Below the pieces are notes generated by a model, which searched no databases, was not told the DNA's origin, and saw only the letters and a list, made by a program, of their open reading frames with translations. Below are positions 5,986 to 28,910 of a stretch of 39,496 nucleotides of DNA, piece after piece. Every line of letters starts with the position of its first letter. The stretch's first letter is position 1. The position numbers and the translations under genes were made by a program. Source of the stretch: a virus; IMG/VR virus record IMGVR_UViG_3300045125_000051, positions 1 through 39,496 of that record; one strand, given 5' to 3'.

Positions 5986-8742
5986 TCAGCCTCCGATCAC
6001 GACCTCTGCGGTCATGCCGACGATTGTGACGGGCAGGATCTGCCTGCCGGACAACGATGTACCCGTCCTGGTTCCAGGACGAGCGTGATGTCAATGCCGA
6101 TCTCCTCGGTCTTCATGTCCAGGCGGCGAGCCATACGGCTCCGTCGTTCGCTGCTTGAACTCGACGAGGCGCGAGCCGCTCGGGCCGACGAAGATGCCGC
6201 TCGAGCGGTACACGCGCAGGTTCACCCTTGTTGACGTTCTTGACGCGACCCTGCCCGAACGCCCTCCATCTGGATCGCCATCGGGAGGGTGTTCGGCTCC
6301 GACGTCGTACGGCGAGCCGACGTGCACGACGGTCGCCGGCACGATCCAGTGCGGTTGCCCCGTCGAGGTCACGACCCGCTGCGTCATCACTGCGCCGTCC
6401 GCCAGGATGCTGACGGTCTTGCCCTTCGAGGTGAGTCAGTCCGCTGACGGTGTCCCGCGCGAAAGCCCAGACTGCCGTGGCGACGCCACGCAGCGCGACC
6501 GGCAGCAACCTTGTCCACGCGAGCGGTCGCCACGGTCGTGGACGTCGTTGACAGGATCGTGAGCCGGTACTCGTCCGTGCCGTTGGTCAGAACGATGGCG
6601 TCGCCGACGTCCGTGGTCGCGCGGGAACTGGAAGATGGCCGCTGCTTGCCGTGATCGTCAGCACTTCGGCAGGACGTCCAGGTCGTCCCGCCCGTGACCG
6701 TCACCGTGGTAGCGGTCGTGTTGTTCGCCGTCGTAGGTCAGGCCGCTGTCAACGAAGAACGCGTCCTCGAGGTCGGTGAAGTTCCGAGACTCCATGCGCT
6801 CGACGTAACGCTTCGTGCTTCCGCCGATGGTGCGGCGCACGGCCACGTAGAGCGCGTCCTCCGCGCCCTCGGCGACCGTGCAGCAGCTCTCGAACGCGCC
6901 GTCCGTTTCGTGCTGGTGCCACGCGCCGACCTGCTGCTCCGGGATGTAGGTCAGTCCGAGCAGCTTCCGCGCTTCGAGGACACGAACCGCAGCAGCGGCT
7001 GCGGAGCGCGCTTCGCGTATGCCATGTCAACGATGTCGAACTCGTCGAACAGGTGCGAGGCTCGAGATCGACAGGTCATCGTGACGAATCCGCTCGACTG
7101 CCATGAGTACCCGAGTTCGCGAACGTGACCGCCTCGAGCAGAGCAGTACACGACGGTGTTGTTCACGATCTGCGGCTGCACGTTGTTCGCGCCGATGTAG
7201 GACTGCGGTCGCACCGAGATCGTGGTCGGCGTGATGGTGTCGCTGTTGACCGGATGACACACGCCATTCGGCTGCGCTCGTCAGGAGCGGAAGCTGCGTG
7301 AGCGGAACGACGTGGCGGATCGGTGTTCGCCTCGCGAGCTGCGACGCGAAGGTTGATCCGGTCGGTGTCCTGCAACGGGATGTGGTGCGACATGTCGCTT
7401 TCCGTTCCGATCTGGCGTCATCCACATCGTCTGCGGTGCGTTCGTTCGTGCCGGCGAACACGCGGCGCTGCTCGAAGTACGAGACGGCGCCAGGATAGTT
7501 GTTCGCGCTGTTGAACACCGTCTCGACGACAGGCGGAGAAATCTCCATGTCCGGCGCGATGTTGTTGTCAACGAACGAGGTTCCTGACGTCTGGCCGATG
7601 TAGCCGTACAGGCCGGACTGGCGCTTGTGCAGCGTTGTATCGGCTGGCTCCAGTGACGGCAGTCCCAGGAGATCGTGTTGGACGCACCGGTAACGGAAAG
7701 GTTGTTCGTTACGCGCAGGATGGCAGGTGACGCGGGAGTTTCGTCGGTTCCAGCCTCTGAAATAGCGGTCGACGCTAGAGTTCGTGATGCTCAAAGTACC
7801 AGGGCCGTGACACATGACCAGTTGCCGTCCGCTTCGTGTACGTGCCGGTGAAGTTGGTGTTCGGCCCCGGTGTCGTATTCGCGAAGCTGGATGAGTATGC
7901 AACCGTCGAGTGTGGACGGTGTAGTACTTGTTGTTGACAGTTCGCACATCACAGCTGACGCCGCTGATGCAGATCGTGTCCGCCATCGCGATGTGAGACG
8001 TTCTGAGCTCGCCGGATCGCGATCGTGTCCCGTACCGCAGTATCGACTCCGGTTGGTGATGCTGTATCCCTGCTCCCACGTTGCCGTTACCGTAGGAGCT
8101 CGGTCGGCGCGATGTTCGCGGCGAACGTGATCGTCGTGAGCAGTCCACGTCGGTCGCGCCACAGCCGGCGAAGCTCTCGAGGCGCGTAGTTCGGGTGAGA
8201 CGAGCGTGAGGACGTCAGCGCTTTGCACGTGGTGGATGTCGAGAACAGGTCTGCCGACGAAGTACGGAGACGGGATCTCGTAGATCCCAGCCGGCATCGC
8301 GTACCAGTAGGCACGCGTTCGGCGGCGCGTTCCCGGTGGTTGCCGCGACGCAGTAGTAGTTCACGCCGCCGCTCGAGACGAGGTCGCCGACCACGAGTAT
8401 GCGGTCGCACGCGTCGTAGGCTGCCGGCGTTCCAGGCCCGAGCGTGGCGGCCTGCGTATGGAACCGGATGTACCGCGCGCCGAGTCTCGATCACCATCGT
8501 CTGCGTGGTGCTGTACGTGAACGGCAGCAGGCGCGACTGGTCTTCTTGAGTCGTTCTTGACCTCGCGGCACGAAGCGCTGTCCGGCTCGGTTCTCGGCCG
8601 GCACCCTGCGGCAACGCTATGAAGTTCGCAGCTTGAGCGCAGCGCCCGTCTGGAACTTGACGTCATCGATTCGCCCGAACATCTCCGGGCTGACACTTCG
8701 CCGCCGGCGAACGAATCGGTAGTACGTGCGCGTTTGTGGCAT
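5986..8742 (-). CDS. Tail tubular protein B, T7 gp12-like (nozzle)
   Basis: About 918 residues after frame repair. It starts MPQTRTYYRFVRR and ends TAEVVIGG. Recognisable blocks are LLPFTYSTTQTMVIE and ALPQGAG near the N-terminus, YYCVAATTGNAPPN, IYEIPSPYF, HVQSADVLTLV with HPNYAPREL, KRQSGLYGYIGQTSGTSFVD, NNYPGAVSYFEQRRVFAGT, YIGANNVQPQIVNNTVVYC, YVERMESRNFTDLEDAFFVD and LRVYRSSGIFVGPSG. The motif order matches the long nozzle protein of podovirus tails, which closes the tail tube below the gp11-like adaptor. Fifteen or more indels fragment it. Immediate neighbours (gp11-like upstream, gp14-like downstream) support the call. Confidence 0.85.
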
Positions 8743-12739: not shown

Positions 12740-14452
12740 TCAGATTTCGACCGCGGACGGTGATCCGTAGCCGGAGAACATGTTCATTACATCGGTGAGC
12801 GCGTTCTGGCCGCCGGTCGGAGCCGAGGCCATGTTCTTGACAGTCTGCGACTGCTGCTGCATCGCGGCGGCCTGCTCCTTCGCGGCCATCGCCTGGTTCC
12901 GTGCCTGCCGCAGCATCGCGACCTCCTTGTCGGCAACGATGAGCGAGGGATCGACGCCGAGCATGTCGGCGTAGATGTCTGCCCACTGGTCGCTGTCGAA
13001 CTTGTCGAGGATGTCCGGCTTCATCGTCGCGATCTGGCCGAGGTTTCCGACGAACCTGTCAACGGCGTTCGTGCCGATGGCGCGCTGCGCCTGCGCGAGC
13101 ATTGACACGAACTCGACGTTCAAGTCCATGCCCTGAAGTTCATCTGGCGCCGGCGGCAGGATGCCGGACTGCACCATGCGCGTGAACGTGATGTCAATGA
13201 GCGGGTCGAGCAGCTCGTTGTGCAGACGCTCGAGGACGGGGCCGAGCATCAGCAGCTTCTCTTCATGGCGCTCGGCGACCTCGGTCGCGGTCATGCGGGT
13301 GTTCGGCTGCGTTGCCAGCATCAGGAACAGGTCGGCGTAGAACGCGCCGCTCACGCGCTGACGGACGTCCTGGATGTCGGCGAGCAGGTAGTTCAGGTTG
13401 AGGTTCACCTCGAACGCGCTGCGGATTCCCTGCGACGCGCCGTCCACGAACGTGATCCCGCCGGGGAGCGTGTCAACGTCGCGGTTCTTCATGCCGGCGG
13501 AAATCTGGAGCGGCGGCTTCGTCTGGTAGTCGATGGCCTGCGCCTTGCGGAGCTGCTCATGCTGGAGCTGCTTGATGTCGCCGAGCGCCTCCATGCCGGG
13601 GCTGTTGCCGTAGATGTCGCCGCCGACCACCGACCAGCGCGGACAGACAGCCGGGAAGTGCGTGAACCCGCTCTCGCGCAGGAACACGCCGTCCTCGCCG
13701 CCGACCTCGAAGTACCACGACCCGAACGGCATGTTCTTGGCGTCGCGCTTCTCGATGTCGCGGTCAGCGCGCGGCTCGATGGCGTGGATCACGGGAACCC
13801 ACTGGTCGAGGTTGCCCGTGCGGTACATGCTCTTCACGGACTGGCTGCACTTCTCGAGGCCGAACTCCTTGACGAGCTGCGAGACGGTCATCTCGAACTC
13901 GCGGTACAGGGTGCAGACTCGCCCCTGCGCGTCGGTCGAGATGCAGTACTCGCCCGTCGTGAGCGGGTAGTGGTGGATCACCTGCTCGAAGTCGGGCAAG
14001 CACGATGCTCGCCGCCGTGCCGAACGCGCCGAGTTCCTCGTACATCAGGTGCAGTGAGCGGTAGGTGTTCGACTTCTGGAACACGCGCTGCATGCGCTTG
14101 GTGACGTCATCGAGCCAGAGCTTGACGGGCTGGTACGAGTTGAGTTCCGGGTCGGGCGTGGCAAGACGGAACCACTGCCGCGCCGGCGACGTCGCGCCGG
14201 ACATCAGCCCAGCGCCGAGGGTGCGAGCGCGCGCGTCCCGGTGTTGTCGTAGATCGCGTTGTGCCGGCGCCATCCCTTGTCGCGATCCTGGCGGAAGTAC
14301 CGCCCGTTGCGCGGCAGCAGGTAGGAGGTGATCTCCTGCCAGTGCGCGAGCCACGATGCGCGCTCACTCTTGAGCTGGCCCCACCGGGTGAACAGCCGAT
14401 CCCGCGTGGGAGCATCGGGATAGGACGAGTTGTCTCCGGTGTATTCGCTCAT
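12740..14452 (-). CDS. Portal (head-to-tail connecting) protein
   Basis: About 570 residues. The N-terminus MSEYTGDNSSYPDAPTRDRL, then LAHWQEITSYLLPRNGRYF, NAIYDNTGTRALAPSALGAG and LMSGATSPARQWFRL, is the signature of the podovirus head-tail connecting protein. The body continues SNTYRSLHLMYEELGAFGTA, FEQVIHHYPLTTGEYCISTD and GGDIYGNSPGMEALGDIKQL, and TRMTATEVAERHEEKLLMLG marks the crown side. The C-terminus is glutamine/alanine-rich helix. It forms the dodecameric ring through which DNA is packaged and ejected. Two indels, near 14220 and 14005; the last 1.26 kb is one open frame. Terminase lies upstream and the head genes downstream. Confidence 0.92.
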
Positions 14453-14455
14453 GGG

Positions 14456-14796
14456 TCAGCCTCCGAGGAGGGAAGTGCGTCCGAGCGCGAGCTGCGACGG
14501 ATCGACGCCGGTCGGCCCGGTCAGCATGGTGCCTGCGGGGCCGCCTGCCGCTCCTCGCTTGCGCCGGCCATGATTCCGGCGACGTCTGGCTGGCGTCGGT
14601 TCGCGGCGGCCATCGCCATCTCCGACTGTCGCTGCTGGCTGCGAGCCTGGGCCTGCTGCTGCTTCTGCGCTTCCTGCTGGTTCTTCATCGCCTTTTCCTG
14701 GGCGGCGGCACCCTGTTCGCCGGCATAGATGCTGTATCCGGTGCCGGCTGCTGCTGCCGCGGCGGCGGCAATCAACGCTCCTTCAATGATTCCCAT
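14456..14796 (-). CDS. Small alanine-rich protein with N-terminal hydrophobic helix
   Basis: About 113 residues starting MGIIEGALIAAAAAAAAGTG. That hydrophobic helix is followed by a long glutamine/alanine coiled coil (EKAMKNQQEAQKQQQAQARS) and a glycine/proline tail ending GRTSLLGG. Similar short proteins occur next to portal genes in podoviruses and are probably minor virion components, but I cannot assign a function. Its ATG lies inside the 3' end of the GNAT gene, so the two overlap by 14 bases. One indel near 14535. Confidence 0.6.
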
Positions 14797-15237
14797 CGGT
14801 GATCTCCTTCGTAAGACCAATGTCTGCAAGTAGATATCCGCGCTTCTGCAACGCGGATGCGAGTCCGGTACCTGCTCTAGTTCGCCAGATGATTCTCGTC
14901 GCGCCCCGTCTCGCGGCTTCTCTTTCAGCCTCGAGCATCAATCGACCGCCGACGTATCCACGCCGCGACGGATCGACGAACAGCGCATCGTTCGCCGCGC
15001 ACGTGATGTCGGGGTTGTGCAGCATCGGCGAGACGATCATCGTGCAGTACCCGATTACCTTTCATCGTCCCATGCTGCGACGATGTACATCAATCCGGTA
15101 TCGACCGCCTTCTGATACAGCGCGAACGACGGTGCAAACTGGAATCCGAATCCGGTTTCCTGCCAGTTCGCGCTGATCAGCGGCACGATGTCCGGCAATA
15201 CCTCCGCGGGATTCGGCAGGAGGCCGTATCGGATCAT
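14783..15237 (-). CDS. GNAT-family N-acetyltransferase-like protein
   Basis: About 150 residues: MIRYGLLPNPAEVLPDIVPL, ANWQETGFGFQFAPSFALYQ, then after an indel near 15055 a beta strand VIGYCTMIVSPMLHNPD, and ALFVDPSRRGYVGGRLMLEA with REAARRGATRIIWRT. The strand-VDPSRRGYVGGRLM-helix block is the acetyl-CoA pyrophosphate loop (R-x-x-G-x-G/A type) of GNAT enzymes; here the loop is RRGYVGGR. Small GNAT proteins are common beside terminase genes of podoviruses, with unknown substrate. No Shine-Dalgarno precedes the ATG, which lies nine bases downstream of a promoter-like -10 hexamer. Confidence 0.75.
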
Positions 15238-15246
15238 CGCGAAATC

Positions 15247-15281
15247 AATCTACGAATCCGTAGACTGATTACGGGTACGGT
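15247..15281 (-). promoter_or_regulatory. Late-promoter-like motif, copy 2
   Basis: Read leftward: ACCGTACCCGTAATC, with TAGATT exactly 16 nt after the ACCCGTAA core. It starts in the TGA of the large terminase gene and ends nine bases before the GNAT ATG. A small inverted repeat, TCTACG-GATT-CGTAGA, overlaps the spacer and the hexamer; it could instead act as an RNA hairpin. Confidence 0.45.
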
Positions 15282-16605
15282 CATGCCATGCCGTCGTATG
15301 GGTCGTAGTCGTTCGGCTTGTCGTGGACGAGTTCGCGCACCTCGCGAGGGAGCTGCTTGCTCACGGCGAACGCGAACGTCAGCGCAAGCGCGTCGGCGAT
15401 GTCGGGCGAGCCGCCGCCCTGGAGGCGCTTCTTGATCTCGTCCTTCGACTCGACGCGCCCTGCGACCGACCGAGTCGTAGGTGTAGGTCGGTGTCGCGAG
15501 TTCGGCCTTGAGCGTGGTATCCGCTGGGATCGATCCGCCGTTCTCGAGCCACTCCTTGACAGCCCACCACATCTCGGCGCGCTTGTTGACGAACAGGTTC
15601 GGGTACGTGGCCTTGCCTCCGAACGCGACCTCGGTGACGTCGTAGCCGAGCTGCCGCAGGCGGTCGATCACGCCGGCACCTGCGCCGCTGTCAATGAACA
15701 CCGCGTCCGGGTCGCGATCCTCGATGACGTTGGCGACCAGGCTCGCGAGCGACATGTTGTCAATGCCCAGTTCGGATGATCGGCTCCTCGGCGCGCAGCC
15801 CCTGCCGAAGCATGATGACGCTGCGGTCATCGCCGAACCGGGCAGGATCGACGCCCATGACCAGCGGCGAGAACACGATGTCGCCGTCCTGGTATCGGCG
15901 CTTGGCCGCAGCCTCGGCATCGGCGAGCGCGATGAGCTGATCGTCGCCTGCTGCGCTGAAGTCGCACAGGAACTCGCGGCTGAACGCCTCCGGAGACATG
16001 TCGCGCTTCAGGCGCGCGACCTCGTCGGCCTCGAGCGCCTCGGTGTCGTAGACCGTATACCGCCGTGCAACCCAGTCCTCGAGGCGGTCGGCCCTGTAGT
16101 ACAGCTCGCTGAACAGGTTCATGCCGGCGGGTGTGCCGATGAACAGCGCCCATCCCTTGCGGTCGGACAGCGCAGGCTGCACGATCTCCGTCCAGACCTC
16201 GGGCTTGATCTGGGCGACCTCGTCGATGACTGCGCCGTCGAGTCGGATGCCGCGGAGCGCGTCGGGGTTGTCGCCGCCGAACAGGCGGATGATGGCGCCG
16301 TTGTGCTTGAACGTGACGGCGAGATCGACCTCGTTGACATCGATGGCGCCCGTCACGCGCAGCGGGTTGAGCTTGTCCTTCAGGCGCGCCCAGGCGATGG
16401 CCTTCGCCTGCTTCAGGAACGGCGCCACGTACACGAAGAACCCGAGTTCCTTGCGGCACTTGACCGCCTGGTTGATGAGTTCCATGATGGCGAGTTCGGT
16501 CTTCCCCGCTCGCCGGTGCAGCACCAGCACCGTGAAACGGCGCTTGACGGTGTGGCATTCGCGCTGCCAGTTGCGCGGCTGGTAGGTGAGTTCAATCTCC
16601 GGCAT
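15281..16605 (-). CDS. terL: Terminase large subunit
   Basis: About 440 residues. It is the packaging motor, with an N-terminal ATPase and a C-terminal nuclease. Walker A is VLHRRAGKTELA (residues about 29-40), Walker B is LDGAVIDEVAQ, and the coupling region holds LFIGTPAGMNLFSELYY. The nuclease acidic residues are visible in VMGVDPARFGDD, AVFIDSGAGAG and, after frame repair, SPDIADALALTFA near the C-terminus. Indels lie near 15770 and 15462. The start ATG overlaps the small terminase stop region by 14 bases. The protein ends with an acidic, tyrosine-rich tail. All catalytic motifs appear intact, so the breaks are read errors. Confidence 0.95.
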
Positions 16606-17648: not shown

Positions 17649-17928
17649 CGGCGACGAGTTCGCCGAAATCCTCGCTCGTTGCCGCCCATATCACGCGAGC
17701 GGTTCCCGGCCCGAGCCAGTTCTGCTCGATGCGGTCGGTGACGAACGCGCGCGCCTCGGGAAGCGTCATCTTCTCCTCGTCGCGCAGCCGTGCGGCGATC
17801 ATGTCGGCGCTGTAGACGGCGACGGGAACCCCGTCCTCGGCGGGGTGCGGGTACATCATCCCCAGCAGGCAATCGTCAAGGCCGGCGAGGAGGATCGACG
17901 GGATTCGCCGGCGGCGCTTCTTCGCCAT
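17641..17928 (-). CDS. Conserved phage hypothetical, first gene of late unit
   Basis: Intact 95-residue frame: MAKKRRRRIPSILLAGLDDC, LLGMMYPHPAEDGVPVAVYS, ADMIAARLRDEEKMTLPEAR, AFVTDRIEQNWLGPGTARVI and WAATSEDFGELVADA. The LDDCLLG...AVYS...GPGTARVI pattern recurs in hypothetical proteins of GC-rich marine and soil podoviruses, with no known activity. It is the most upstream gene of the leftward transcription unit, has no evident Shine-Dalgarno, and overlaps the next gene by about eight bases. Confidence 0.75.
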   Translation of the reverse strand: MAKKRRRRIPSILLAGLDDCLLGMMYPHPAEDGVPVAVYSADMIAARLRDEEKMTLPEARAFVTDRIEQNWLGPGTARVIWAATSEDFGELVADA

Positions 17929-17973
17929 GCGCGCAGATTAGCCTTGACATCGGGCGATTCACGGAGATTCCGA

Positions 17974-18028
17974 GTGAGAGCCGCCGCATCGCTGCGCTGC
18001 GCCTACGGCTCCGCGAGCGGCGGCTCAC
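17974..18028. other. Large inverted repeat GTGAG..CCGCCGC / GCGGCGGCTCAC
   Basis: GTGAG-AG-CCGCCGC pairs with GCGGCGGCTCAC (12 base pairs, two-base bulge) around a 29-nt GC-rich loop. It lies about 46 bases upstream of the first late gene. It could be a transcription barrier or a binding site. There is no T-tract, so it is not a standard terminator. Confidence 0.35.
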
Positions 18029-18309
18029 GCACATCAGCCATATGGGCGGAGTTGGCAGGTCGTACCCGCCGGGGGTTGCAATTCAGTCTGCATGGTGAGC
18101 GCAGAGGGAGTGACCCCGCGAGGGGGCCAGATCGACCAGCCCACACGGAGCCACGCTTTCGGTCGAGCCACGAATTTCACCATTTCGCTGGAGGACTGCC
18201 AGCCGCTGCCTTCGTGGGGAGCGCGCCCTTTCGGGCGGCGCAGGTTAGGGTCACGCCCTGCGTCTACGTCCATGATCCCCTACCGCGCCGGGATCTGCCT
18301 GCGGCATTG

Positions 18310-18337
18310 TTGCTCCTGGGAGCAGGTTCGGTACAAT
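18310..18337 (+). promoter_or_regulatory. Sigma70-like promoter with palindrome in spacer
   Basis: TTGCTC, 16 nt, TACAAT. The palindrome TGCTCC-TG-GGAGCA (18311-18324) overlaps the -35 and spacer and could be an operator. Transcription would start near 18344 and meet the hairpin terminator at about 18427 with no ORF between. Confidence 0.45.
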
Positions 18338-18343
18338 GCAACC

Positions 18344-18430
18344 GCGATGGGATGAGCAGCCCGCATCATAGCGACCAACGCTGTGAATGCAATCGCAAAG
18401 TAGCGCAGGCCTCGGCTTGCGCTTCTTTGT
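18344..18430 (+). ncRNA. Candidate small RNA between promoter and terminator
   Basis: A transcript from the promoter at 18310-18337 to the terminator-like hairpin would be about 87 nt. The only ATGs inside open 2- and 5-codon frames without ribosome sites. Without homology or expression data this is only a prediction from promoter-terminator spacing. Confidence 0.25.
18396..18427 (+). terminator. Rho-independent terminator-like hairpin
   Basis: Nested inverted repeat CAAAG-T-AGCGCA-G-GCC / GGC-T-TGCGCT-T-CTTTG with a two-base loop, followed by TTGTTGT. Flanking A- and T-rich arms suggest it could work in both directions. Its 3' arm supplies the -35 (TTGCGC) of the next promoter. Confidence 0.45.
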
Positions 18431-18444
18431 TGTCGCGGTATAGT
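18417..18444 (+). promoter_or_regulatory. Second tandem sigma70-like promoter
   Basis: TTGCGC, 16 nt, TATAGT. The geometry matches the upstream promoter (TTGCTC-16-TACAAT), 107 bases away. It overlaps the 3' arm of the terminator hairpin, and it could drive the HNH gene if the hairpin at 18552 is read through. Confidence 0.45.
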
Positions 18445-18551
18445 GCCGTCGCCGGCGAGCGCCCTGACGAGATGCCCAGGATCGTTTCCTGTTCGTCTGC
18501 TCTCCGGCATACGGGCAGCCACGGACGGCGCCCACCTTTGCCCCCGGATCG

Positions 18552-18590
18552 CGCGCCCTGCTGGCCCCGTGCCGCAGGGCGCGTTCTATT
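18552..18590 (+). terminator. Perfect 10-bp hairpin, terminator or attenuator
   Basis: CGCGCCCTGC, 12-nt loop, GCAGGGCGCG, then TTCTATT. It lies about 100 bases downstream of the second promoter and 75 bases before the HNH start, so it could attenuate early transcription. Confidence 0.45.
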
Positions 18591-18663
18591 CGGTGGTAAA
18601 GTAAGAACGCAGGACGGTGCATGCCGCCCTGCGCTCCAATACCACAAGCGATGGAGGTCGCTC

Positions 18664-19190
18664 ATGGCTGTACACCACATTACCGCGGATTTGGTTCGGT
18701 CACTCTTGGACTACGACGCCGAGTCCGGATTGCTCGGCGATAGGCGCATATCGCGCGGCAGGGCTGGCGTCGGAAAGATTGCCCGGAACCATAAAGAAAG
18801 ACGGATATCTCTGGGTGTGTGTCAAAGGCGTTTCCGTTGCTGCACATCGCTTGATTTGGTTGCACGTTCATGGCGCATGGCCGACCCATGAGATTGACCA
18901 CATCAATGGAAACAAGCTTGACAATCACGTGGTCAATTTGCGTGATGTCTCACGGGCCATGAACGCGCAGAATCTCACGGTCGCACACAAGACAGCAGGT
19001 CTGGAGTTCTCGAGAGTTCGTTGGCATCCGCGAGACAGAACGCTGGATCGCACAAATAAGCGTTCATGGAAAGCTCGCATCATCTGGGGATGTCTCTTAC
19101 GGCGCAACAAGCACAGGACGCATACCTGATTGCCAAGAAAACCTGCATCCAGGAGATCGCAGGAACGCAACTGCACGCGTTGATCCAGGC
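18664..19190 (+). CDS. HNH endonuclease
   Basis: About 165-175 residues. It starts MAVHHITADLVRSLLDYDAE, changes frame near 18735, then runs GTIKKDGYLWVCVKGVSVAA and HRLIWLHVHGAWPTHEIDHI, then NGNKLDNHVVNLRDVSRAMN. The H-E-I-D-H-I-N-x-N...N-L-R-D...N-x-x-N pattern is the HNH_3 catalytic core. The C-terminal part (RSWKARI, then AQQAQDAYLIAKK in another frame) resembles the AP2-like DNA-binding repeat seen in such homing-type enzymes. It is the first rightward gene, with hairpin 18608-18632 in its leader. The exact stop is lost in indels. It may be a free-standing homing endonuclease. Confidence 0.85.
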
Positions 19191-27378: not shown

Positions 27379-28337
27379 ATGACGAGCCTCGCACGGCTGG
27401 ACGATGAGAAGCGCGACCTGCTTTCCCGCACCCTCTGCACGGGCGCGACGCGCGACGAGATGGAGCTGTTCTTCAACATCTGCGAGCGCACGGGCCTCGA
27501 CCCGTTCGCGCGCCAGATCTACGCGGTGAAGCGGTGGGACAAGCGCGCAGGGCGCGAGGTCATGCAGACGCAGGTCAGCATCGACGGTTTCCGCCTGGTC
27601 GCCCAGCGCAGCGGCGAGTACGCCGGACAGACCGCCGTGGCCTACTGCGGCACGGACGGACGCTGGGTTGACGTCTGGCTGCACGACGAGCCGCCGGCTG
27701 CGGCGCGTCGGCGTGTACCGCAAGGGGTTCGTGGAGGCGGTCGGCGCCATCGCCCTGTTCCGCGAGTACGCGCAGCGGTCGAAGGACGGCTACCTCACCG
27801 GGATGTGGGGGAAGATGCCGACCGTGATGATCGCCAAGTGCGCCGAGGCGCTCGCCCTCCGCCAGGCGTTCCCGCCGAGCTGTCGGGCCTGTACACCGCC
27901 GAGGAGATGGGGCAGCAGGACAACCCAGCCGGCGGCACCCGCCGTGCAGGCCGTTGCCGCGCTCCCCGCTCCGAGGTCGTGGAGGCGGCGCAGATGCCCC
28001 AGGACGCGCCCGAGGCGACCGAGGCACCCAAGACGCCCCGCAAGCGCACGAAGCGCGCAGACATCGCTCCTGCCGCCGAGGAGGCTACCGCCGCCCCGAA
28101 GGCGGTCGATGCATACCCCGATGAATACGAGGGGAAGTTCATGGTGCAGCGCGTGGTGCGCCGACCCGGCAAGCCGGTCGCGATTCAGGTTGCCGGCGAA
28201 CACGGCAGCGCGTGGATCGCGACGAGCGTCGAGGAGTACGCGCAGCTCGCCGAGGCGAACGTCAACTCCGAGGTCACCCTCGAGATCGCGCGCATCGGCA
28301 CCGCGCTCCAGGTCATGCGCGTCATCGGCCCCGGTGA
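27379..28337 (+). CDS. bet: Bet/RecT-family single-strand annealing protein with C-terminal extension
   Basis: About 320 residues. Residues 1-190 are the phage Bet domain: MTSLARLDDEKRDLLSRTLC, GATRDEMELFFNICERTGLD, PFARQIYAVKRWDKRAGREV, MQTQVSIDGFRLVAQRSGEY, GYLTGMWGKMPTVMIAKCAE and ALALRQAFP. It promotes annealing of single strands during recombination. A proline/alanine/lysine-rich linker (about 200-250, with TPRKRTKRAD) leads to an added domain, EGKFMVQRVVRRPGKPVAIQ, GEHGSAWIATSVEEYAQLAE and VTLEIARIGTALQVMRVI, which looks like a small beta barrel. Indels lie near 27705 and 27880, and in CCCC at 28330; the stop at 28335-28337 assumes the last. No exonuclease partner is recognisable. Confidence 0.9.
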
Positions 28338-28381
28338 AGCCGCTCGACGTCGATCCCAGCAGACACGCCGTTCTGAACCAC

Positions 28382-28394
28382 CAACGAGAGGAGA
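28382..28394 (+). promoter_or_regulatory. Shared 13-nt leader, gp157
   Basis: CAACGAGAGGAGA followed by CACCC and the ATG at 28400. Third identical copy of the element. Confidence 0.6.
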
Positions 28395-28399
28395 CACCC

Positions 28400-28910
28400 A
28401 TGAGCCTGTACGCAATCACGTCCGAACTGGAATCCGTCCTCGACGCCATCCTCGAGGGAGGCGTTGACAGCCCCGAGGCGCAGGACGCGCTCAACGAACA
28501 CCTCGCCGGCCTGGACTCGGCGCTCGAGGCGAAGGCCGACGATTACGCCGGGCTGATCCGCAGCCTCGAGCTGCGGTCGGAGGCGCGGGTCGCCGAGGCT
28601 CGCCGAATCCGCGCCCTCGCCGACGCCGACGCCGCGCTCGCCGAGCAGGCTCAAGGCGCGCCTGAAGGAGGCGATGGAGCGCAGCGGCGAAGCTCAAGCT
28701 CGATACCGCCGACGGTTCAGGCTCGCGGTCGCAGGCAACGGCGGCAAGGCGCCGCTCGAGGTCACCTGCGACACCGCGTCGCTCGCCCCCGAGTACCAGA
28801 CGGTGACCGTCACGTTCAACCGTGACGCGATCCGCGCTGCGCTCGAGGGCGGCGCGACGATCCCCGGATGCACGATCCTCCCGCGAGGGACGAGCCTCCG
28901 CATCCGCTGA
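28400..28910 (+). CDS. Gp157-family protein
   Basis: About 170 residues: MSLYAITSELESVLDAILEG, ALEAKADDYAGLIRSLELRS, EARVAEARRIRALADADAAL, then after an indel near 28655 RLKEAME (implied), TASLAPEYQTVTVTFNRDAI, RAALEGGATIPGCTILPRGT and SLRIR. The helical N-terminal half with K-A-D-x-Y-A-x-L-I-R-x-L-E and the C-terminal PxEY...R-x-A-I-x-x-A-L-x-x-G-x-x-(I/V)-P-G-x-x-(I/L) pattern match the Gp157 family of siphoviral early proteins, named from a Streptococcus phage resistance protein and often beside ssDNA-annealing or ERF genes. Last gene of the rightward unit. Confidence 0.82.

Follow-up and report, generated by a model that had tools for sequence, protein, structure and literature searches.

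Candidate tandem small RNA genes and an opposite-strand structured RNA between two gene blocks of an environmental podovirus

Several arrangements described in phages resemble parts of the locus reported here. In phage lambda, the pR′-tR′ pair places a promoter and, shortly after it, an intrinsic terminator before a gene block and yields a short RNA without an ORF, and phage 186 carries convergent promoters, one transcript being able to restrain the other. Phage-encoded sRNAs, among them VpdS, PreS, OOP, and sar, act on host or phage messages and several are Hfq-bound according to the available part of PMC12197685, in which 6S is listed among the Hfq-dependent phage sRNAs. The accessible text of PMC9378689 mentions sigma-dependent pausing and lambda Q and describes the HK022 put RNA, a folded RNA close to a phage promoter that suppresses termination. 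Other points of comparison are the CsrA/RsmA-binding RNAs and the start-associated sequences of cluster K mycobacteriophages, both discussed below.

The locus lies in the virus record IMGVR_UViG_3300045125_000051, the whole of which (39,496 bases, hereafter the window) was analyzed. According to our best reading, which we consider probable, it carries two stand-alone sRNA genes, for the predicted RNA 1 and RNA 2, together with a structured RNA on the opposite strand, RNA A. This reading is based on conservation, covariation, promoter spacing, and recurrence in two phage lineages. Like VpdS, PreS, OOP, and sar, RNA 1 and RNA 2 would be short phage-encoded non-coding RNAs, but their sequences are different and a constant octamer, CCCCCGGA, is set here in exchangeable scaffolds in two unrelated lineages. 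The locus resembles lambda pR′-tR′ in its promoter-terminator arrangement before a gene block and in the predicted short RNA without an ORF, and differs from it in having two tandem units with covarying RNA bodies, one of which, unit 2, also occurs beside other neighbours. As in phage 186, two promoters may face each other, but the RNA A promoter is here a candidate picked by eye. Phage sRNAs are already known; what appears to be new is the constant octamer in exchangeable scaffolds, its presence in two lineages, and the predicted overlap with a pseudoknotted RNA on the opposite strand. Full-text literature searches, in a collection without most subscription papers, turned up no previous description of the three RNAs.

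The portal protein of the window is 71.9% identical to that of Limnohabitans phage DC33 (best hit) and 64.2% identical to that of Bordetella phage BPP-1. The window is an environmental podovirus with a portal closest to the BPP-1 group. The RNA-gene stretch sits between the terminase and structural genes, which run leftward from about 17.4 kb (PHROG matches to terminase, head-tail adaptor (portal), and major head protein), and a rightward block with PHROG matches to an HNH endonuclease and to RusA-, RecT-, and Gam-like proteins. The matches to TerL, portal, and RecT are in each case spread over two frames (window positions 12740-16605 and 27379-28825), and the matching TerL frame is unbroken in the close relative L176. 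The record thus probably contains many small insertions or deletions, and single bases should therefore not be over-read. Directly to the right of unit 2 lies the HNH endonuclease frame (phrog_99, 18617-19129), which is missing from the set of frames that have three or more relatives and is thus perhaps a recent insertion in the window phage.

A first-pass annotation of this region had proposed two tandem promoter-terminator pairs without ORFs, each of which could make a small RNA, or whose hairpins could serve as attenuators or antitermination sites. All of the elements that it named are present: TTGCTC (18310-18315), separated by 16 bp from TACAAT (18332-18337); a first hairpin (18396-18428) with the tail TTCTTTGTTG; TTGCGC (18417-18422) in the 3′ arm of this hairpin, 16 bp before TATAGT (18439-18444); and a perfect 10-bp stem (18552-18561/18574-18583) followed by TTCTATT (18584-18590). 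The absence of ORFs holds in substance, but open frames do cross the region, including one of 520 aa that matched no PHROG family. Both hairpins folded better than 200 of 200 shuffled sequences (z = −5.88 for the first and −5.41 for the second, folded as 18540-18600). In scans of 3.5 kb of the window, no promoter consensus site was found (0.7 expected), and three terminator sites were found for 2.2 expected, two of the three being the hairpins just described. The evidence from the window alone is thin, barely above chance, and the decision must therefore come from relatives.

Relatives were obtained from viral contigs by protein searches with the portal protein (best 80 of at least 600 loci kept) and with the product of a 95-aa gene located left of the stretch (best 80 of 129 loci kept). 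BLAST of 17929-18700 against these loci and L162 revealed two conserved non-coding blocks, 18082-18378 and 18452-18590, in pieces of 76-92% identity, and each block was found in some loci without the other. For the loci chosen by the 95-aa gene alone (gene-chosen loci), 67 of the 80 have at least 1,900 bases upstream; these 67 are separate contigs, some nearly identical, and do not represent 67 independent events. For unit 1, 23 distinct copies were compared, out of 111 including duplicates.

Promoter 1 (TTGCTC-16-TACAAT, 18310-18337, plus strand) had the form TTG[CA][TC]C-16-TA[CG]AAT in 23/23 distinct copies, with TTGCTC, TTGCCC, or TTGACC as the −35 element, a constant 16-bp spacing, and TA[CG]AATGC in all 23. 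As it overlaps the pseudoknot of RNA A, described below, its conservation may be a by-product. The candidate RNA 1, of about 85 nt (18344-18428, plus strand, both ends predicted), would be made of a bulged hairpin (about 18363-18390) and of terminator 1 (18396-18428; core stem 18402-18423), which ends in a T-rich tail. In the alignment of the 23 copies (A2), pairing reached 97.4% in the stem of terminator 1, where 8 of 10 pairs showed double changes, and 93.4% in the outer stem of the bulged hairpin, where one of four pairs did; the inner stem of this hairpin, which is out of register in A2, was left out of the counts. The covariation score of the four-helix structure in A2 reached 0.363, compared to 0.069 at most when the partners were slid, and no shuffle scored as high, whereas its pair-type count was reached by 415 of 500 shuffles.

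Promoter 2 (TTGCGC-16-TATAGT, 18417-18444, plus strand) has its −35 element inside terminator 1 and carries, in the window, only 8 of 12 consensus bases. A promoter of the form TTG-N16/17-TAnnnT followed unit 1 in 17 of the 23 distinct copies (12 with a 16-bp and 5 with a 17-bp spacing), and none was found in the other six. With two hexamers spaced by 16-18 bp and kept in relatives, promoters 1 and 2 have the features predicted for sigma-70 promoters; likewise, both terminators combine a G+C-rich stem kept by compensatory change with a T-rich tail, as would be predicted for intrinsic terminators.

The candidate RNA 2, of about 140 nt (18451-18590, plus strand, ends predicted), would comprise a 5′ domain, a hairpin (18513-18533 in the fold of the window) with the loop ACGGAC (18521-18526), the octamer CCCCCGGA (18541-18548), and terminator 2 (18552-18590). 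The octamer was found upstream of the 95-aa gene, in the orientation of unit 2, in 67/67 gene-chosen loci whose upstream region reaches 1,900 bases (from the best 80 of 129), at distances of 600-1,961 bases. It was present in 3 and absent in 10 of the 13 gene-chosen loci with a shorter upstream region. In the viral and phage loci, 67 of 93 distinct octamer sites, a set that includes the loci obtained by a pattern search whose word contained the octamer, were followed within 8 bases by an intrinsic terminator, compared to 15 of 898 sites for eight control words of the same composition. Terminator 2 showed 24 different 5′ arms among these 67 sites when one mismatch was allowed, 25 of the 67 being mismatch-free. 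Of the 67 gene-chosen loci, 31 carried a hairpin with an ANGGAN loop and 36 lacked it; among the 67 distinct sites, it was present at 34 and missing at 33, and AUGGAC, at 1 of these 34 sites, was the only variant of the ACGGAC loop. Promoters and 5′ domains of unit 2 also vary between groups. Since promoters, 5′ domains, hairpin, and terminator arms all vary, the octamer is the constant part of unit 2. No complementary site that could serve as a self-target was found elsewhere in the window.

The alignment of unit 2 (A1) contained 28 of 36 distinct copies and left out five near-duplicates as well as L167, L205, and L208; these three, out of 57 viral matches to the unit-2 word pair, were read individually by eye and taken as chance matches. 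The constancy of GCCACGGACGGC and CCCCCGGA in A1 was imposed by the search word and is therefore no evidence. A CGG-GGC/GCC-CCG pairing across the linker, given by RNAalifold on A1, was rejected as it rests on columns fixed by the search, and the model built on this structure (R1) was used as a finder only.

Within the podovirus group, the stretch following unit 2 was linked in 55 of 66 sites, which formed one single-linkage cluster. The idea that this stretch is variable was thus dropped for this group, and unit 2 may therefore act on the downstream gene. Inspection by eye of L015, L108, and L052 showed that terminator 2 runs into TTGACA-N17-TATxxT-like promoters to the right of unit 2, the next promoter beginning in the terminator tail, again as for unit 1 and promoter 2.

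Taken together, the short RNAs of about 85 and 140 nt proposed in the first-pass annotation are partly supported: promoter and terminator are conserved as pairs, with a predicted covarying RNA between them. Its alternative, attenuation or antitermination at the hairpins, is possible but less likely, the stretch after unit 2 being largely shared within the podovirus group. Conservation of the stems in relatives, one of the checks that it had named, was borne out, since both terminators are kept with changing stems. It had missed both the structured RNA on the minus strand at promoter 1 and the constant CCCCCGGA of unit 2.

RNA A is a conserved structured RNA predicted on the minus strand (18083-18346, ends uncertain) and directed leftward to the terminase genes. 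Three of its helices lie within the 46 bases that hold promoter 1, and 99.6% of their cells were paired over 15 distinct rows. These are S1 (18344-18341/18332-18329, CGGU/ACCG, 98.3% paired, with a double change at one pair), S2 (18339-18333/18310-18304, GCAUUGU/ACAAUGC, 100% paired, one of its pairs being doubly changed), and an inner hairpin (18324-18319/18316-18311, 100% paired, with double changes at two pairs). S1 and S2 are interlocked, giving RNA A an H-type pseudoknot at its 5′ end (18304-18344, minus strand), with compensatory changes on one strand. The covariation score of the pseudoknot was 0.259, compared to 0.062 at most when it was slid, and no shuffle scored as high; its four double-changing pairs were reached by 33 of 500 shuffles and its pair-type count by 420 of 500.

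Owing to wobble pairs, pairing of the inner hairpin was complete (100%) on the minus strand, compared to 84.1% on the plus strand. As the alifold energies of the whole block are close (−203.2 for the minus and −197.3 for the plus strand) and do not decide, the strand of RNA A rests on this wobble pattern and on the pseudoknot, whose one-base connecting loop would be compatible with the deep groove only in a minus-strand reading. The exact core word of RNA A was found in 35 of the 67 gene-chosen loci, and a model of RNA A (R2) added 3 of the other 32, giving 38/67. A weak full-length match to R2 in L086 (3128-3285, plus strand; 21.8 bits, E 0.0022), at a different place relative to unit 2, was not counted among them. 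A minus-strand terminator-like site followed the block in 5 of 23 copies, at differing places; as no constant terminator follows it, RNA A could act as leader to the leftward late genes. A candidate promoter for RNA A was picked by eye on the minus strand (18365-18392), with TTGCAT (18392-18387) located 16 bp from TATGAT (18370-18365), and would face promoter 1. Its TAnnnT was kept in 23 copies and its −35 element was not.

A coding reading of 18083-18346 was also considered and rejected. Conserved nucleotides fell in different frames across the relatives listed, and in 13 of 21 relatives the length differed from that of the window by something other than a multiple of three. The codon-position bias of the block was weak (mean variability 0.063, 0.079, and 0.104). 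To the left of RNA A, a long inverted repeat (17976-18026, GAGAGCCGCCGC ... GCGGCGGCTC), devoid of a T-rich tail, was noticed by eye and is partly kept in the closest relatives.

The pattern search also detected a promoter-like sequence, an ACGGAC hairpin, CCCCCGGA, and a terminator in eight loci of a second phage lineage (L163, L183, L186, L191, L192, L194, L207, and L210). The core of unit 2 has there another promoter and other neighbours, and adjoins a phrog_1221-type gene, recognized by a PHROG match in L192, by similarity in L163, L191, L194, L207, and L186, and by eye in L183 and L210. This lineage is of the siphovirus type and unrelated to the window, as judged from its genes for a phrog_38 terminase (L186, L192), a phrog_113 portal (L186), and Erf (L186, L192). 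The unit-2 cassette is thus kept together in another gene context, as would be predicted for a stand-alone sRNA gene. Three of these loci that were scored by R1 (L183, L186, and L192) were themselves training rows of this model. A search for relatives of the phrog_1221 gene gave six loci, five of which were contigs already in the set; the sixth, the more distant L314 (59% identity), was without the unit-2 cassette.

Neither R1 nor R2 matched BPP-1 (41.2 of 42.5 kb scanned) or parts of DC33, ctEw122, and ctQRb9 (23-28 kb each), and no DNA similarity to the stretch was found in the annotated phages and plasmids searched. In bacterial genomes, 56 loci contained the unit-2 word pair, but none had the hairpin-octamer-terminator layout when inspected by eye, and they were considered chance matches. 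No record holding unit 2 was thus found in the phage, plasmid, and bacterial collections searched. Rfam 15 gave no match in the window at the gathering threshold, and the four matches in 17900-18700 were all below threshold (best E 0.13).

In the reading that we favour, the host sigma-70 RNA polymerase would start at promoter 1 and stop at terminator 1, yielding RNA 1 of about 85 nt, and would restart at promoter 2, from a −35 element inside terminator 1, and stop at terminator 2, yielding RNA 2 of about 140 nt. That these RNAs are made, where they end, and every function given to them are what we infer from the sequence. RNA 2 would most likely be a trans-acting or decoy sRNA, in which variable 5′ domains and the terminator would frame the constant and probably single-stranded CCCCCGGA, available to bind an RNA or protein partner. 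The pseudoknotted RNA A would proceed towards the late genes, probably as their leader, and RNA 1, fired against the start of RNA A, may restrain it via transcription interference or short antisense pairing.

Four other explanations were weighed against these two sRNA genes; CRISPR-repeat mimicry and a ColE1-type RNA I/II system were considered as well and set aside. In an antitermination relay of the lambda pR′-tR′ (Q) type, constitutive short transcripts would end until a phage protein permits read-through into the rightward block. The close succession of promoter and terminator before a gene block, known from lambda, and the linkage of the stretch after unit 2 in 55/66 sites both fit such a relay, which, however, needs neither a constant octamer nor covarying RNA bodies and does not sit well with the occurrence of unit 2 beside other neighbours in the second lineage. 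No Q-like gene was found among the PHROG matches of 40 window frames, a weak argument given that many genes are split and many frames unmatched, and we regard this relay as improbable. Insulation alone, with strong terminators and incidental promoters separating the leftward and rightward programmes and no functional RNA, would suit the location between opposed gene blocks and the freedom of the terminator arms to change (24 different arms); since it would require neither conserved promoters nor a constant octamer in 67/67 loci, we give it very little credence.

The two remaining explanations assign the RNAs another role. In a CsrA/RsmA decoy, one CsrA dimer would sit on both the CANGGANG hexaloop of unit 2 and the GGA within CCCCCGGA, and host or phage messages would thereby escape repression. 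The hairpin C-ACGGAC-G fits the CANGGANG apical hexaloop of the high-affinity CsrA/RsmE sites described in the available part of PMC4894983, and the sole loop variant, AUGGAC, retains ANGGAN. Copies with the hairpin thus share with CsrA/RsmA-binding RNAs a C-ANGGAN-G hexaloop and a second GGA about one dimer span away, the GGA-to-GGA distance being 23-32 bases here, near the 18-21 nt quoted in the same portion of PMC4894983. Known decoys, however, have many sites according to that text, compared to one or two here, and the half of the distinct sites that lack the hairpin (33/67) keep a single GGA in those inspected by eye. A CsrA decoy, though attractive for the copies with the hairpin, also appears improbable. 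By analogy with HK022 put, a cis element could act as a folded RNA that modifies its own polymerase, the terminators testing or gating that state. Folded RNA immediately after the promoter is consistent with this, as are the pseudoknot near the presumed 5′ end of RNA A and the lack of a constant terminator after it; in a variant of this explanation, RNA A could be the true put-like element, at the head of the late genes. In the part of PMC9378689 available, put RNAs are about 70 nt long with two stem-loops and suppress termination, whereas each of units 1 and 2 ends directly in a terminator whose stem is conserved, a layout more in keeping with a stopped transcript; at the sequence level, the comparison with put consisted of the Rfam scan. 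We consider a put-like element highly improbable.

Returning to the two sRNA genes, a broader hypothesis can be formulated, which we hold to be possible, though rather unlikely as a whole. It would see in unit 2 a mobile sRNA family common to podovirus and siphovirus lineages that are not related to each other, with exchangeable folded 5′ domains and, before the terminator, a constant CCCCCGGA to which a host partner would be captured. Together with the pseudoknotted RNA A, encoded back to back with it and heading the late genes, it would form a compact RNA-only control hub between two gene programmes. The sRNAs of environmental phages escape gene callers, but the signature of CCCCCGGA before a terminator, present in 67/67 long-enough podovirus loci examined and in the second lineage, allows this candidate sRNA to be located from sequence and its partner to be tested for. 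Should unit 2 prove to titrate an RNA-binding protein of the host or to seed on host mRNAs, it would be a lineage-crossing phage RNA tool. RNA A, which would precede the terminase genes, is in its own right a candidate regulator of late transcription.

Finally, a sequence sharing the unit-2 octamer, CCCCCGGACGGGG, was observed in the siphovirus-type lineage shortly before the start codons of several genes per contig, often after another hairpin, and thus looks like a start-associated leader motif. It is located at 6393, 8035, 10462, and 10935 in L192 and at 2443, 3695, and 4168 in L191, all on the plus strand, and also precedes start codons in L163, L194, L207, and L210. The start-associated sequences of cluster K mycobacteriophages, as presented in the accessible part of PMC3203893, are likewise a motif repeated before start codons, but of another sequence, and the window itself contains a single CCCCCGGA, the one in unit 2.
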